Source: Oleisolibacter albus (GTDB taxonomy: Bacteria; Pseudomonadota; Alphaproteobacteria; Azospirillales; Azospirillaceae). Taken from it: a stretch of 64,000 bases of DNA. The stretch covers positions 1 to 64,000 of the forward strand of contig NZ_QGNJ01000009.1 of NCBI RefSeq assembly GCF_003336875.1. The letters run 5' to 3'. Below, one piece after another: positions 29,662 through 35,316 of the stretch (within the stretch, counting starts at the first letter, position 1; every line of letters begins with the position of its first letter). The notes under the pieces are model-generated. The model was not told the origin of the DNA and searched no databases. It saw only the letters and a program-made list of their open reading frames with translations. A program made the position numbers and the translations under genes.

Positions 29662-30144
29662 TCAGCGCGCCTCCGGCTCCGTCGGGGGCGCGCCAGCGGA
29701 TCGCCGCGGGGCCGGGCGGGTCAGGATGAACAGGCCGGTGGCGCAGAGGGTGAGGCCGACGATCCAGGGCACCATCGGCCGGCTGGCGCTGGTCACATAG
29801 ACCAGCCCCCAGGAGGCCGCCATCAGGCTGATGGCCATGATCTTGGCCCGGGTGGGAATGGCCCCCTGCTCCCGCCAGTCGCGCAGCAGCGGGCCGAAGC
29901 GGGGATGGTTCAACAGCCGCTGCGCCCGCTGCGGGTGGCTGCGCATATAGGCCCAGACGGCGACGAGCAGGAACGGTGTCGTCGGCAGCACCGGCAGCAC
30001 GGCCCCGGCGATGGCCAGCCCGACGCAGACATAGCCCAGCGCCAGATAGAACCAGCGCCAGCGGCGCGCGGCCAGCGCCGGCGCGGCCGGATGATCGGCG
30101 GCCGGCCCGTCCATCGGCGGGGAGGAGGCGGGGTTGCTGTCCAT
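29662..30144 (-). CDS. DUF454/YbaN-family inner-membrane protein
   Basis: 160 residues from the ATG at 30144. The family block GYVCVGLAIAGAVLPVLPTT is followed by PFLLVAVWAYMRS, LLNHPRFGPLLRDWREQGAI and KIMAISLMAASWGLVY, with three or four membrane helices. Function unknown. A GTG at 30204 would add 20 residues but has no ribosome site and would include the AATCGTTCACGATT palindrome, so the shorter form is preferred. Convergent with dctM (three bases apart). Confidence 0.85.
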   Translation of the reverse strand: MDSNPASSPPMDGPAADHPAAPALAARRWRWFYLALGYVCVGLAIAGAVLPVLPTTPFLLVAVWAYMRSHPQRAQRLLNHPRFGPLLRDWREQGAIPTRAKIMAISLMAASWGLVYVTSASRPMVPWIVGLTLCATGLFILTRPAPRRSAGAPPTEPEAR

Positions 30145-30194
30145 GGCCGCAGTCTGGGGCCGGCGGCGGCCGGGCGCAAGAGCCAGCGAATGAT

Positions 30195-30208
30195 AATCGT
30201 TCACGATT
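30195..30208. promoter_or_regulatory. Palindrome AATCGTTCACGATT shared with the TRAP promoter
   Basis: A perfect 6+2+6 palindrome upstream of both the leftward DUF454 gene and the rightward Nudix pair. Its core ATCGTTCACGAT is identical to 26440-26451 in front of the TRAP operon, suggesting the same regulator. Confidence 0.5.
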
Positions 30209-30326
30209 GCTGGAAGGGATGTCGCAGCCTCGGGCGGCGGCTTTTCCCGCTGCCGTCCGTCACAGCGGCCCCGCTGCGCCGTCTAACCGGAGGACAGGCC
30301 CCCCGGCACCGCAGCGGAGACTCCCC

Positions 30327-31121
30327 ATGGTCAGCACCTATGTCTGTTTCTACGAGATCCTGCCCGACCTCGGCCCCTGCGTGCTGCTGGCACGGCGGAA
30401 CTTCACGATCGGCCGCATCGCCGGCCAGGAGGTGGCCAACCCCGCCGCCGCCGACCATGCCGGACAGTGGGTGCTGCCCGGCGGTCCGGTGCTGAATGCC
30501 GGGGCGGTCCGGACACTGGACCGGCCGGACTTCCTGGCTGTCTGCCTGACCGCGGCGGCCGGCGCCATCGCCGGCGGGCTGGGCGTGGCGCTGGAGGGCG
30601 GCTATTTCTTCCAGCCGCCGGCAGCGGACGGTGTCGCCCATCTCATCCCGGAGAACCGGGACTATTGCATCTTCTACCTGCCCACGGTCGGGCTGCTGCC
30701 GATGTCGGTGGAGATCAACGACCGGCTGGTGAGCAAGGGGACGCCGGATGCCGGCTACTACGCCACCGGCCTGTTCCCGTTGGCCGACGCCCGGGCCCGG
30801 CTGGGGCGGGTGCGCCTGCCCATGACCCTGCGCAACAAGGATGCCGTCGCGCTGATGGGCTTCGGGCCGCCGCAGGTGCAGGCGCTGCGCCAGCACACGC
30901 CGGAGCCGCTGCTGCAGCAGTGCCCCGGCCTGGACCCCATCCTGGATGCCCTCAACGACCCGAAACCGGAAAAGCGGCAGCAGAACTATGCGACGGCAAC
31001 GGAGAAGCTGTGGGCGTCCGCGCCCGGCCTTACCCTCTATTCTTCAATTTATGAAAAGGCTCTGCAGCCTTTCGACCGCTTCACCCAGGCGCTCCTGCAC
31101 CTGCCCCGCATCGCCCTGTAA
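30327..31121 (+). CDS. Degenerate Nudix-fold protein (pseudo-Nudix paralogue)
   Basis: 264 residues, ATG at 30327 after CGGAGA. Clearly paralogous to the next gene over most of its length: shared blocks are AGQWVLPGG (45-53), the YCIFY-x2-TVG block and the LRQHTPEPLLQQCPGL-type C-terminal segment. Where the sister has KKEIHEELGI, this protein has AGAIAGGLGV (78-87), so all three metal-binding glutamates of the Nudix box become A80, G83 and G84. It is therefore predicted to be catalytically dead but intact as a fold. Possible roles are nucleotide sensing or partner binding. The frame upstream of 30327 is ignored. Confidence 0.7.
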   Translation: MVSTYVCFYEILPDLGPCVLLARRNFTIGRIAGQEVANPAAADHAGQWVLPGGPVLNAGAVRTLDRPDFLAVCLTAAAGAIAGGLGVALEGGYFFQPPAADGVAHLIPENRDYCIFYLPTVGLLPMSVEINDRLVSKGTPDAGYYATGLFPLADARARLGRVRLPMTLRNKDAVALMGFGPPQVQALRQHTPEPLLQQCPGLDPILDALNDPKPEKRQQNYATATEKLWASAPGLTLYSSIYEKALQPFDRFTQALLHLPRIAL

Positions 31122-31155
31122 GGCACGGCCAACACCCGAGACAGGAGAGCCGACA

Positions 31156-31926
31156 ATGACCAGCGTCTATGCCTGCTTCGCCGAACCCAGCCTGGACGTG
31201 CAGCTGAAGGTGCTGCTGGGCCAGAAGAACTTCCTCATCACCCGCGTCGATGGAAAGACGCTGTCCAAGCCGCTCGCCAACAACAATGCCGGCCAGTGGG
31301 TACTGCCGGGCGGCCATGTCGAGGAAGACAAGCAGATGGAACCGGAGGCTGAGTTCCTGACGGCCTGCCTGAAGCAGGTGAAGAAGGAGATCCACGAGGA
31401 GCTGGGCATCGATCCGGAAGCCGGGGAGTATTTCGAGCCGCCCACACTGGAGTCCACACGCCAGTATTTTCCCGAGGATCGCTCCTTCTGCATTTTCTAC
31501 ATCTATACGGTCGGCATCGGCACGCTCTGCGCCCAGATTAACACCAACATCCAGGCCAACGATGTTGAGGACAATGAACTGAACCAGGTCGCCGTCTTTC
31601 CCATCGGTGAAGCCATCGGAAAATTCCGTACCTTCCAGCTGCCCTTTCCGCTGGCGACGTACTTCACCAAAACCCAGGAAATCTTCCCCTATGAGAATGC
31701 CGAGATCATCCAGGCCTGCATTCCCGAGAATGTCCGCCGGCAATGTCCGCAGCTGGAACAGATGATCAGCGCCAGGATGGCCGACAATGCGGATGACATG
31801 CGGACCTGCGTCACGACGTTGTATAAAAAGAAGGAAACCAACCTGTTCAACTGGATCCGCACCAAGGCCAACGGCCCCTGCGACTGGTTCGTCACCGCCC
31901 TCAACAAGGCCCCGCTGATCCCCTGA
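31156..31926 (+). CDS. Nudix hydrolase family protein
   Basis: 256 residues. Nudix elements: AGQWVLPGGHVEED at 45-58 and KKEIHEELGI at 76-85 (K in place of the usual R before the first Glu; E78, E81 and E82 kept), with a few more residues between them than the standard 23-residue box. C-terminal region YFTKTQEIFPYENAEII to NWIRTKANGPCDWF is not a known domain. It lies 34 bases after its degenerate sister, preceded by GGAGAGCC. Base composition is visibly less GC-rich than flanking genes. Substrate unknown. Confidence 0.8.
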   Translation: MTSVYACFAEPSLDVQLKVLLGQKNFLITRVDGKTLSKPLANNNAGQWVLPGGHVEEDKQMEPEAEFLTACLKQVKKEIHEELGIDPEAGEYFEPPTLESTRQYFPEDRSFCIFYIYTVGIGTLCAQINTNIQANDVEDNELNQVAVFPIGEAIGKFRTFQLPFPLATYFTKTQEIFPYENAEIIQACIPENVRRQCPQLEQMISARMADNADDMRTCVTTLYKKKETNLFNWIRTKANGPCDWFVTALNKAPLIP

Positions 31927-31953
31927 TCCGGCGGCGCCTGGCACCGGACATGC

Positions 31954-31986
31954 CCCCCTGTCCCGGCGGGTGACCGGGACAGGGGG
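31954..31986. terminator. Hairpin between convergent Nudix gene and lon
   Basis: Perfect 13-base stem CCCCCTGTCCCGG (31954-31966) with CCGGGACAGGGGG (31974-31986), loop CGGGTGA. No T-run, so it may act as a bidirectional mRNA 3' end or block rather than a classical terminator. Confidence 0.6.
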
Positions 31987-31993
31987 CGCCCGG

Positions 31994-34480
31994 CTACTCC
32001 GCCGCGGCGGCGTGCCGGCACTGCTGGCCGAGATCCTCGCCCAGGGCGCTGGCGATGGCCTGGTCCACCGTCTCCAGCCAGACGAAGGTCAGCAGCTTGC
32101 GCACATCCTCGGGGATGTCGTCATAGTCCCGGCGGTTGCGCGCCGGCAGCATGACGGTCTTGACCCCGGCCAGGGCCGCGGCCGTGACCTTCTCCTTGAT
32201 GCCGCCCACCGGCAGCACCAGCCCGCGCAGCGAGATCTCGCCGGTCATGGCCGTGTCGTGCCGCACCGGCCGGCCCGTCAGCAGGCTGACCAGGGCGGTG
32301 AACATGGCGACACCGGCCGACGGCCCGTCCTTGGGCGTGGCCCCGGCCGGGACATGGACATGGATGTCCTGCTTGTCCAGCTCCTCGGCCCGGATGCCCA
32401 GGGCGGCGGCCCGGCTCTTCACCAGGGACAGGGCCGCCTGCACGCTTTCCTTCATCACGTCGCCCAGCTGTCCCGTGAGGATCAGCTTGCCGCTGCCGGG
32501 ATAGCGGCTGGCCTCGATGAACAGGATGTCGCCGCCCACCGGGGTCCAGGCCAGACCGGTCGCCACGCCCGGCAGGCCGGTGCGCAGCGCCACCTCGTTC
32601 TCGAAGCGGCGTCCGCCCAGGATGGGCTGGAGATCGTCCGGCCCGATCTCCACCCGCTCGGCCTCGCCGCTGGCGATGCGCACGGCGATGGTACGCAGCA
32701 CCGCCGCGATCTGCCGTTCCAACGAGCGCACGCCGGCCTCGCGGGTATAGCCCTGGATGATGGCGCGCAGGGCCTCGTCGCCGAGGCTGGCCTGCCCGGC
32801 CGTCAGCCCGTTGGCCTTGAGCTGCCGCTCGACCAGATAGCGCCGGGCGATCTGGAGCTTCTCCTCCTCGGTGTAGCCGGCCAGGCTGATGATCTCCATG
32901 CGGTCGCGCAACGGGCCGGGGATGCTGTCCAGCATGTTGGCGGTGGCGATGAACATCACCTTCGACAGGTCGAAGGGCTGGCCCAGATAGGTGTCGCGGA
33001 AGGTGCTGTTCTGCTCGGGGTCCAGCACCTCCAGCAGGGCGGCGAACGGGTCGCCGTGGAAGCCCTGGCCCAGCTTGTCCACCTCGTCCAGCATCAGCAC
33101 GCAGTCGCGGCTGCCGGCCTTCTTCAGGGCCTGGATGATGACGCCGGGCAGCGCCCCCACATAGGTGCGGCGGTGGCCGCGGATCTCGCTCTCGTCATGG
33201 ACGCCGCCCAGGGCCACGCGCTGGAACTTGCGGCCCGTGGCGCGGGCGATGCTCTGGCCCAGCGAGGTCTTGCCGACGCCGGGCGGACCGACGAAACAGA
33301 GGATGGGGCTCTTGCCCTCCGGGTTCAGCTTGCGCACCGCCAGGAACTCCAGGATGCGCTTCTTGATCTTCTCCAGGCCGAAATGCTCGGCATCCAGGAC
33401 GGTACGCGCCTCCTTGAGGTCGATGGGCTGAGCCGTCTCCACGCTCCAGGGCAGCTCGGTCAGCCACTCCAGATAGGTGCGGACCATGGAATATTCGGCC
33501 GCGGCCTCGGACATGCGCTCCAGCCGCTTCAGCTCCTTGCGTGCATGGGCCTCCACCTCGGCGGGCATCCCGGCCTTGTCGATGGCCTGGGACAGCTCCT
33601 CGATCTCGGCGGCCTTGTCGTCCGCCTCGCCCAGCTCCTTCTGGATGGTGCGCAGCTGCTCGCGCAGCAGATATTCGCGCTGGCGCTTGTCCACGCTCTC
33701 CTTGGTCTGCTGGCTGATCTCGCGGGTCAGGCGCATGACCTCGATGCGGCTGTTCAGTTGCTGCGTCACCCGGTCCAGCCGCGTGCGCAGGTCCAGCGTC
33801 TCCAGCAGGGCCTGCTTCTCCGCCGGGGCGATGTCCAGATAGGTGGCCACCATGTCGGCCAGCTGGCCGGGCGCGGTCACTGACTGGATGGCGGCCGACA
33901 GCTCGGCCGGGGCCTGGGGCAGCAGCCCCACCGCCTCCAGCGCCCGGTCGCGCAGCAGGATGAAGCGGGCCTGGATCTCGGCATCCTGGTCACCGGCCTC
34001 GGCCAGCCGCTCGATGCGGGCGACCATGAAGGGCCAGCCCTCCAGCCATTCCTTGACGCGGAAGCGCTGGTCGCCCTGGGCCACCAGATGGTGCGTCCCG
34101 TCCGGGGCCGTCAGGTAGCGCAGCAGGTTGGCGGCGGTGCCGACCTCGTACAGGTCCGCGCCGCCCGGCTCCTCCATCTCCTCCTGCCGTTGCAGCAGCA
34201 GGCCCAGCGGCTTGCCGCTGCGGGCCGCCTCCTGGGCGGCGGCGATGGAGCGCTTGCGGCCGATGGCGACGGGCAGCACCACGCCGGGGAACAGCACGAT
34301 GTTGCGGGCCGGCAGCACGATGATGGCATCGTCCGGCAGCGGGGCGAATTTCGTCTCCGGCCCCGCCGATGCGGCCGGGGACGCCATGTCGGCCGCCATC
34401 TGGGCTGCCATCTCTGCCGCCATCTGGGCCGCCATCTGGGCCGTCCTCCGGACCGGTGTCTGATTCTGTGTGGTGTCCAT
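31994..34480 (-). CDS. lon: ATP-dependent protease Lon
   Basis: 828 residues. N-terminal substrate domain, then AAA+ ATPase with Walker [16 protein letters not shown] and Walker [13 protein letters not shown], then the Ser-Lys protease domain with [13 protein letters not shown] and [10 protein letters not shown]. Degrades misfolded and regulatory proteins; in alphaproteobacteria it also acts on cell-cycle regulators such as CcrM. An unusual N-terminus of about 38 residues contains an AQMA-type four-residue repeat from 12-base tandem units at 34392-34439, before the normal start of the Lon domain ([11 protein letters not shown]). It is preceded on the same strand by the hsp20 gene, nine bases away, so the two likely share heat-shock control. 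Confidence 0.97.
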
Positions 34481-34489
34481 GATCCCACC

Positions 34490-34897
34490 TCAACCCTTGT
34501 GCAGCACGACCAGCAGGCAGCCATCGGTGAATTCGCGATGGCCGATGCCCGCCACCGTCGGCGGCAGATCGATGCGGCGCTCGAAGCGCCCATAGGGAAG
34601 TTCAAGCCGGTGGACCAGCGCCTCCTCGCCCTGGGCCACGGGGAAGGAGCGCTCGCCGCCGATCACCAGGGTGCGGCCGTCCAGCAGCACCTGGAGCTGA
34701 TCGCCGCGCACGCCCGGCAGGGCGACGCAGATGCGGTACTCGCCCGCGGTCTCGAACACATCGACGGGGGGTTCCCAGCTCGGCCGGCTGTGGCCGGCGG
34801 CGGGGCGGAAGGTCTGGTGGCGGTGCTGGCGCTCGACCTGGTCGAGCAGCTCAACCGCCTGGGCCCACATGAAGATGCGGGGGTCGCGGTGGGACAT
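34490..34897 (-). CDS. Hsp20/alpha-crystallin small heat-shock protein
   Basis: 135 residues. The alpha-crystallin domain is visible: PPVDVFETAGEYRICVALPG, then LQVLLDGRTLVIGGER, RLELPYGRFERRIDLPP and FTDGCLLVVLHKG. Holds unfolding proteins in the cytosol. AAGGAAG precedes the ATG. The short C-terminus lacks the usual IxI tail motif seen in oligomer-forming members, which could affect assembly. First gene of a likely hsp20-lon operon. Confidence 0.9.
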   Translation of the reverse strand: MSHRDPRIFMWAQAVELLDQVERQHRHQTFRPAAGHSRPSWEPPVDVFETAGEYRICVALPGVRGDQLQVLLDGRTLVIGGERSFPVAQGEEALVHRLELPYGRFERRIDLPPTVAGIGHREFTDGCLLVVLHKG

Positions 34898-34976
34898 CAA
34901 TGGCTTCCTTGGCAACGGAACACCGGCCGGGGTCCCTCCCCTCAACAGGCGAAGGGGCTCCGGCGTGACAGGGTGG

Positions 34977-35005
34977 ATGTGGGGCGTCGGCCCGCCCTTG
35001 TGAAG
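34977..35005 (-). promoter_or_regulatory. Possible RpoH-type heat-shock promoter for hsp20-lon
   Basis: Read on the minus strand, CTTCACA (35005-34999) and CCCCACAT (34984-34977) are spaced by 14 bases. They resemble the sigma-32 consensus CTTGAAA and CCCCATNT. The site lies 80 bases before the hsp20 start. Inference by eye. Confidence 0.35.
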
Positions 35006-35049
35006 GGGGCGGCGGCGGGCGGCGGTGATCTGGCCGCACCCCTCCCGCG

Positions 35050-35316
35050 TCGTGCCCGCCTGCGCAGGCACCCAGGACCCAGAGGGCGACGCCTGGAAGC
35101 GCGTTCATGCCGTGGTGGAGGGGGGGCGAAGGCCGGTGGGCGGTGCCCGATCCGGGGCCTGCCGGTGCAGGCATGGCCCCCCGGTCCCCGCCGGCGCGGG
35201 GACGATTTCGCGCGACGCGATTGGGGATATGTCGCCGGACCCGGGTCCCCGCCGGCGCGGGGACAATTGTTGCCCCTGCTGGTTAGGAACCAGCGGGTCC
35301 CCGCCTGCGCGGGGAC
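35050..35316. repeat. Cluster of palindromic GTCCCCGCC repeats
   Basis: The gene-free stretch 34898-35391 holds one imperfect copy at about 35050-35076 and three near-identical palindromes: 35183-35203 and 35244-35264 (GTCCCCGCCGGCGCGGGGAC) and 35296-35316 (GTCCCCGCCTGCGCGGGGAC), 61 and 52 bases apart start to start. Same family as the copies at 7.3 kb and 49.6-50.5 kb. Nothing else is visible in the stretch except the possible hsp20 promoter. Confidence 0.75.

Follow-up and report, generated by a model that had tools for sequence, protein, structure and literature searches.

A tandem pair of Nudix-homologous genes in Oleisolibacter albus, one of which lacks the three catalytic glutamates

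Why would a bacterium carry, directly beside the gene for an apparently active Nudix protein, a paralogue in which all three catalytic glutamates have been replaced? The locus that raises this question lies in a stretch of 64,000 nucleotides from Oleisolibacter albus (NZ_QGNJ01000009.1, positions 1 to 64,000), referred to below as the window. The upstream gene (gene 1) encodes the protein without the glutamates and the downstream gene (gene 2) its presumed active relative. We tentatively favour, at somewhat less than even confidence, the reading that gene 1 has been kept as a non-catalytic Nudix paralogue which binds to, pairs with or senses for the active one, and that the two are an old duplicate and probable cargo of their site.

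The two genes and their relationship

We found both genes at exactly the coordinates given in the original prediction, which had described a tandem pair. They lie on the same strand with an intergenic gap of 34 nt, and this spacing makes a two-gene operon plausible. A search of 30000-32200 revealed neither a promoter nor a terminator-like site. The features of the pair are as follows.

30316..30319, + strand: GGAG, ribosome-binding-like site upstream of gene 1 (by eye)
30327..31121, + strand: gene 1, 264-aa Nudix-homologous protein without all three catalytic Nudix-helix glutamates (open reading frame, translation, 31% identity to gene 2, coding signature)
30459..30485, + strand: gene 1 AGQWVLPGG, residues 45-53, identical in gene 2 (alignment)
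30561..30587, + strand: gene 1 Nudix-helix remnant GAIAGGLGV, residues 79-87 (alignment; codons GCC/GGC/GGG at the Glu positions)
30666..30692, + strand: gene 1 CIFYLPTVG, residues 114-122, second strongly shared motif (10/15 identical around gene 2 residues 106-120)
30813..31118, + strand: gene 1 C-terminal part, residues 163-264 (no Pfam family over cut-off, no PDB sequence at E<=1)
31143..31147, + strand: AGGAG, ribosome-binding-like site 8 nt upstream of the gene 2 ATG (by eye)
31156..31926, + strand: gene 2, 256-aa Nudix protein with a KEIHEELGI helix, probable pyrophosphohydrolase (Pfam PF00293, hhalign)
31288..31314, + strand: gene 2 AGQWVLPGG, residues 45-53 (alignment)
31384..31410, + strand: gene 2 Nudix helix KEIHEELGI, residues 77-85, Lys for canonical Arg (alignment, codons)
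31489..31515, + strand: gene 2 CIFYIYTVG, residues 112-120 (alignment)
31636..31923, + strand: gene 2 C-terminal part, residues 161-256 (no Pfam family over cut-off, no PDB sequence at E<=1)

In a single BLASTP comparison the two proteins aligned end to end with 81 of 263 residues identical (31%, E=9e-41). The earlier proposal of an alignment over most of their length with a common AGQWVLPGG was borne out, and judged from their sequences the two are full-length paralogues. Conservation was patchy along the length. All nine residues of AGQWVLPGG were identical, as were 10/15 at gene 2 residues 106-120, while the Nudix helix (gene 2 residues 73-85) kept 3/13 and residues 164-256 kept 22/93, with 79/256 overall. 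When the identity vector was shuffled 100,000 times, an uninterrupted run of at least nine identities arose in 321 cases. The coding similarity of the two genes also accounts for a direct repeat of 104 nt (71%) around the pair.

At the helix, K77 E78 I79 H80 E81 E82 L83 G84 I85 of gene 2 were aligned with G79 A80 I81 A82 G83 G84 L85 G86 V87 of gene 1. Alignment and codons agree on the predicted replacement of E78/E81/E82 by A80/G83/G84, the three positions being GAG/GAG/GAG in gene 2 and GCC/GGC/GGG in gene 1. Assuming three Glu codons in the ancestor, a minimum of five base changes is needed to arrive at gene 1, so that the loss does not go back to one recent point mutation.

Gene 2 passed the Pfam NUDIX (PF00293) threshold at residues 42-157 (29.6 bits, cut-off 21.1). 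The genome contains 17 NUDIX matches, and only that of gene 2 lies on its contig. When gene 2 was compared by hhalign with eight further Nudix domains from its own genome (17 found in all), a probability of 88.8 over 40 columns was obtained; the corresponding comparison of gene 1 with eight of these domains gave 52.6 over 20 columns. Gene 1 alone had no Pfam NUDIX match, and the family search of its own genome lists gene 2 and not gene 1, but its Nudix homology is clear through the alignment with gene 2. The fold around the altered helix may be kept in gene 1, as was originally proposed from the sequence.

Measured against the Nudix box GX5EX7REUXEEXGU, gene 2 has E78, E81, E82 and G84 in place and contains ten extra residues. 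The distance from the second G of LPGG to the box arginine position is 24 residues in gene 2 (to K77) and 26 in gene 1, compared with 14 in the canonical box, so the longer gap ascribed to gene 2 is real. Gene 2 also has lysine at the arginine position, a feature that the original prediction had not mentioned. It thus resembles the Nudix pyrophosphohydrolases of PF00293 in having AGQWVLPGG followed by KEIHEELGI and in scoring over the Pfam cut-off, and differs from them in the spacing and in the lysine. According to the accessible text of a structural survey, deviant boxes are common: the canonical box occurs in 40 of 78 structurally aligned clan members, the other 38 having substitutions, deletions or insertions (PMC5389931). 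In view of the lysine and the ten extra residues, we regard gene 2 only as a probable active enzyme, which would probably hydrolyse a substrate of the nucleoside-diphosphate type.

A separate history had also been suggested for gene 2 on the basis of its lower GC content. Its GC content is indeed lower (58.0%, compared with 68.9% in gene 1), but the difference lies mostly at codon positions 1 and 2 (0.55/0.37 in gene 2 vs 0.71/0.47 in gene 1) and therefore mainly reflects amino-acid content. GC3 was 0.82 in gene 2, 0.88 in gene 1 and 0.88-0.94 in five neighbouring genes. The lower GC of gene 2 alone is weak evidence for a separate history.

Maintenance or decay of gene 1

A gene that has lost its catalytic residues may simply be on its way out. 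Such a relaxed duplicate, in which the active-site constraint has gone and the remainder is slowly eroding, would be rich in residues favoured by a GC-rich genome, and gene 1 has a Gly/Ala/Arg/Pro content of 37.5% vs 22.7% in gene 2, which fits what is expected from relaxed constraint in a GC-rich genome. The failure of Pfam to recognise gene 1 points the same way, as does the observation that the helix has diverged little more than the whole protein, its change being roughly proportional to the overall divergence. Loss of the glutamates may for this reason have been passive. The same proportion can be read as loss of the catalytic constraint and not of the protein.

To set gene 1 against drift, neutral decay was simulated from gene 2 down to 31% identity, with 400 runs each at an equilibrium GC of 0.7 and 0.8. 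These simulations start from gene 2 and not from the ancestor, omit insertions and deletions, and are blind to a recent loss of constraint. We found that GC3-GC2 of gene 1 was 0.411, above the maxima of 0.309 (GC 0.7) and 0.281 (GC 0.8) reached in the 800 neutral decays. Only 30 of the 800 decays kept zero stops, 4/400 at GC 0.7 and 26/400 at GC 0.8. Together these results indicate that for most of the time since the two genes diverged gene 1 was under constraint as a coding gene, though a late loss of constraint is possible.

The claim that gene 1 is not a long-decayed pseudogene therefore held: there is no internal stop, and GC3-GC2 is 0.41 vs at most 0.31 in the simulations. Against slow erosion we further count the reading frame, open over 264 codons with a GC3 of 0.88 and a GC2 of 0.47, and the exact retention of the nine-residue AGQWVLPGG. 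The codon signature lies beyond 800/800 simulations, which speaks against drift over the whole divergence and not against late loss of constraint. On balance we consider the relaxed duplicate unlikely.

The favoured reading, a maintained pseudoenzyme, would instead have gene 1 keep AGQWVLPGG and the C-terminal part while losing the residues that bind the catalytic metals in Nudix enzymes. Both genes would derive from an old tandem duplication within a rare Nudix-fold family made up of a Nudix domain and a C-terminal part of about 95 residues. Gene 1 would most likely act as a binding protein, which either tunes gene 2 by pairing with it or serves as a sensor of the same ligand. A hetero-oligomer of the two proteins, and regulation through it, are the further steps that we infer.

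The C-terminal part and known degenerate Nudix proteins

The C-terminal domain had been described as unrecognised, and it matched no Pfam family over the cut-off and no PDB sequence at E<=1 in either protein. The best match of helix-turn-helix type, seen for the C-terminal part of gene 2 only, was to the winged-helix model RNase_H2-Ydr279 (E=0.093, below the cut-off). We also ran AlphaFold2 on two-row alignments, and the mean pLDDT of 35.1 and 36.7 for the two proteins was too low for a reading of the beta-grasp Nudix fold. In the low-confidence model of gene 2 the C-terminal part is helical (block pLDDT 28-56), and both models are without strands in this part, at a confidence too low to count. 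A profile of the C-terminal part (A5) matched 4 of 385 genomes, namely the source genome and three others at E 0.002-0.01. These three matches, two of which have in-frame stops, were taken as chance.

Pairing of a dead with an active Nudix protein is of a known kind, while the present family looks undescribed. In the accessible text of one report, human Syndesmos (NUDT16L1, TIRR) is a probable duplicate of NUDT16 that has glycine or leucine for the catalytic glutamates and binds RNA and proteins, so that, as in the present pair, the two are paralogues likely to have arisen by duplication with the glutamates replaced in one of them (PMC6294507). By analogy this would be the closest precedent in its logic. 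The present pair differs from these human proteins in its unmatched C-terminal part and longer Nudix box. The genes of NUDT16 and Syndesmos are not known to form a tandem operon.

The second precedent is bacterial. As far as the accessible text of the source goes, the regulators NrtR and AraR have an N-terminal Nudix-like domain in which two or three Glu are substituted, followed by a C-terminal winged helix-turn-helix (residues 149-225 in BtAraR), and they show that a bacterial Nudix domain can turn into a ligand sensor once the glutamates are gone (PMC4666351). Gene 1 resembles them in combining a degenerate N-terminal Nudix domain with a C-terminal part, and it could accordingly be imagined as a stand-alone regulator of the NrtR kind, its Nudix domain sensing a nucleotide or sugar and its C-terminal part acting on DNA or a partner, with gene 2 as the enzyme for the same ligand. 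The shared order of domains and the shared loss of two or three Glu, as far as PMC4666351 is accessible, speak for this, and so does the C-terminal part of about 100 residues in gene 1, whose counterpart in gene 2 touches the winged-helix model named above. Two observations weigh against it. The same C-terminal part is also present in gene 2, the presumed active member, and no NrtR-type or other DNA-binding family was found for the whole proteins in Pfam and NCBIfam up to E=1, libraries in which the presence of the NrtR winged-helix model is unconfirmed. We rate such a regulator as improbable, on a par with the eroding duplicate.

For the pseudoenzyme reading that we prefer, the regulatory step of gene 1 would be modelled on these analogies. 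If a complex forms, we would have in this pair a compact case, from bacteria, of an active Nudix enzyme regulated by its pseudoenzyme paralogue, to be set beside a human paralogue pair (NUDT16/NUDT16L1) and fused bacterial regulators (NrtR/AraR), both as described in the accessible parts of their sources. No title in the literature on inactive or paired Nudix proteins, which was covered in part and with few subscription papers, named a bacterial tandem of an active and a dead Nudix protein. The pair is at present without comparative support for pairing.

Distribution and genomic site

Relatives of the pair were sought in several genome samples, which overlap. Gene 1 and gene 2 each matched only their own genome among 59 related genomes (own included), and of the 11 genomes of the genus one, again the source, has the pair. 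Among 82 genomes of the order, a two-row profile picked out 2, the source and a member of the same family (G059, E=2.6e-4), and in the phylum sample 1 of 398, the source itself; for samples of this size scoring was limited to the best candidates in each genome, and weak relatives could be missed. The same profile matched 0 of 369 genomes of another class of the phylum, a sample that held no genome known to match, and 0/1 in one further genome search. With a four-row profile (A2), 57 of 385 genomes of the class sample matched, own included. In the source genome, the best candidates scored were 6/10 for the two-row profile and 7/48 for A2. Among the A2 matches listed outside the source genome, all fell around the Nudix box, within profile positions 13-120 of 256, and we rejected them as family members, reading them as generic Nudix similarity.

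Further scans agreed with these results. A pattern scan of genome contigs, which finds only what fits the pattern, returned 141 stretches and no relative, and a degenerate motif-pair pattern returned 8 stretches, none with an open reading frame of at least 80 aa matching either protein (BLASTP E<=1). Pair-based searches of plasmids and phages found none. Three of four scans of viral contigs gave no relative; the fourth gave one contig (L094), with a match confined to residues 45-85. Records very near the source genome may be missing from what was searched. In what was searched, the full-length family thus appears absent outside its own genome and the pair an orphan. With almost no detectable relatives, the role of the pair is not readable from comparison.

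Two distant relatives were recovered. G059 encodes a Nudix-like protein of 183 aa (L013, 1465-2016) with 36 of 163 residues identical to gene 2 (22%), and with this protein as the query we found a plasmid protein of Eleftheria terrae (WP_301260626.1). Both share AGQWA(L/V)PGG and a later IN with the pair. They differ from it in being shorter after the Nudix domain in the A2 alignment, and no second Nudix gene was seen beside either. By eye, the box is canonical in the Eleftheria protein (RREFAEETG), and one Glu of three is left in L013 (QRLFHEQTG). Catalytic residues may thus have been lost more than once around this family, as judged from four sequences, too few for more. Matches of the Eleftheria protein to plasmids, other than itself, were 22 of 23 records, with a coverage of 9-28% around the Nudix box.

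We then compared the genomic surroundings. Upstream of the pair and divergent from it is a DUF454 gene (29662-30204), beyond which lies a TRAP transporter (DctP, DctQ, DctM). On the downstream side a convergent gene encodes a second Lon protease (31994-34480, 828 aa) and is followed by an Hsp20 gene (Lon and Hsp20 together 31994-35071); the Lon assignment comes from a Pfam run on the 84% identical relative in another genome of the genus (G004). Among the 11 genomes of the genus, the source and G004 (84%) share the second Lon at high identity, the other matches being 47-48% identical. The gene order in G004 (L108:13307-17682) is Hsp20, Lon, PIN toxin, Phd-type antitoxin, GST, DUF454, while here it is Hsp20, Lon, Nudix pair, DUF454 (slot 29662-31994). 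Since the contents between Lon and DUF454 differ, the comparison with this one relative supports a variable slot, with the pair either acquired here or lost in G004, and the pair is probably acquired cargo. Short direct repeats flank the pair, one of 27 nt at 70% (30267-30293 and 31908-31934) and one of 19 nt at 84% (29998-30016 and 32042-32060). We did not accept them as borders of an element, short two-copy families often being due to chance.

The PIN, Phd-type antitoxin and GST genes at the same site in G004 raise the question of whether the pair is itself cargo of a toxin-antitoxin or defence type, with gene 2 as an effector on the nucleotide pool and gene 1 as its cognate partner. Its occurrence in a single genome of the genus (1/11, own included) would suit this, and gene 2 weakly matched PADLOC PDC-S07 (E=0.0014). 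PDC-S07, however, also matched the Eleftheria Nudix protein, and both matches lie around the Nudix box, pointing to generic similarity. The plasmid and phage searches, which did not find the pair, and the viral scans, three of four without a relative and the fourth limited to residues 45-85, further count against it. We therefore hold this to be very unlikely. Scarcely more probable, in our view, is the most far-reaching conjecture, an undescribed bacterial two-protein module in which an active Nudix hydrolase and an obligate glutamate-less partner share a C-terminal assembly part and are moved as cargo at a site of the toxin-antitoxin type, serving as a nucleotide-sensing effector/immunity or enzyme/regulator pair. 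The preferred reading would likewise place the pair as probable cargo at the variable site between the second lon and the DUF454 gene, with gene 1 as a maintained pseudoenzyme.

The neighbourhood of the Eleftheria gene is of a different kind. WP_301260626.1 (335 aa; NZ_CP106952.1, L014:7509-8516) has some 100 additional residues ahead of the Nudix box, and six RebB R-body genes are found three genes upstream of its gene, which adjoins a gene with a glycoside-hydrolase domain. It is a possible accessory of the R-body cluster. RebB is also found in G059. We rejected an R-body link of the Oleisolibacter pair, as RebB occurs in 32 of the 82 genomes sampled from the order and the RebB genes of the source genome lie about 131 kb from the pair. 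These comprise three RebB matches (163373-164499, outside the window), with a sigma-factor-like open reading frame seen nearby by eye.
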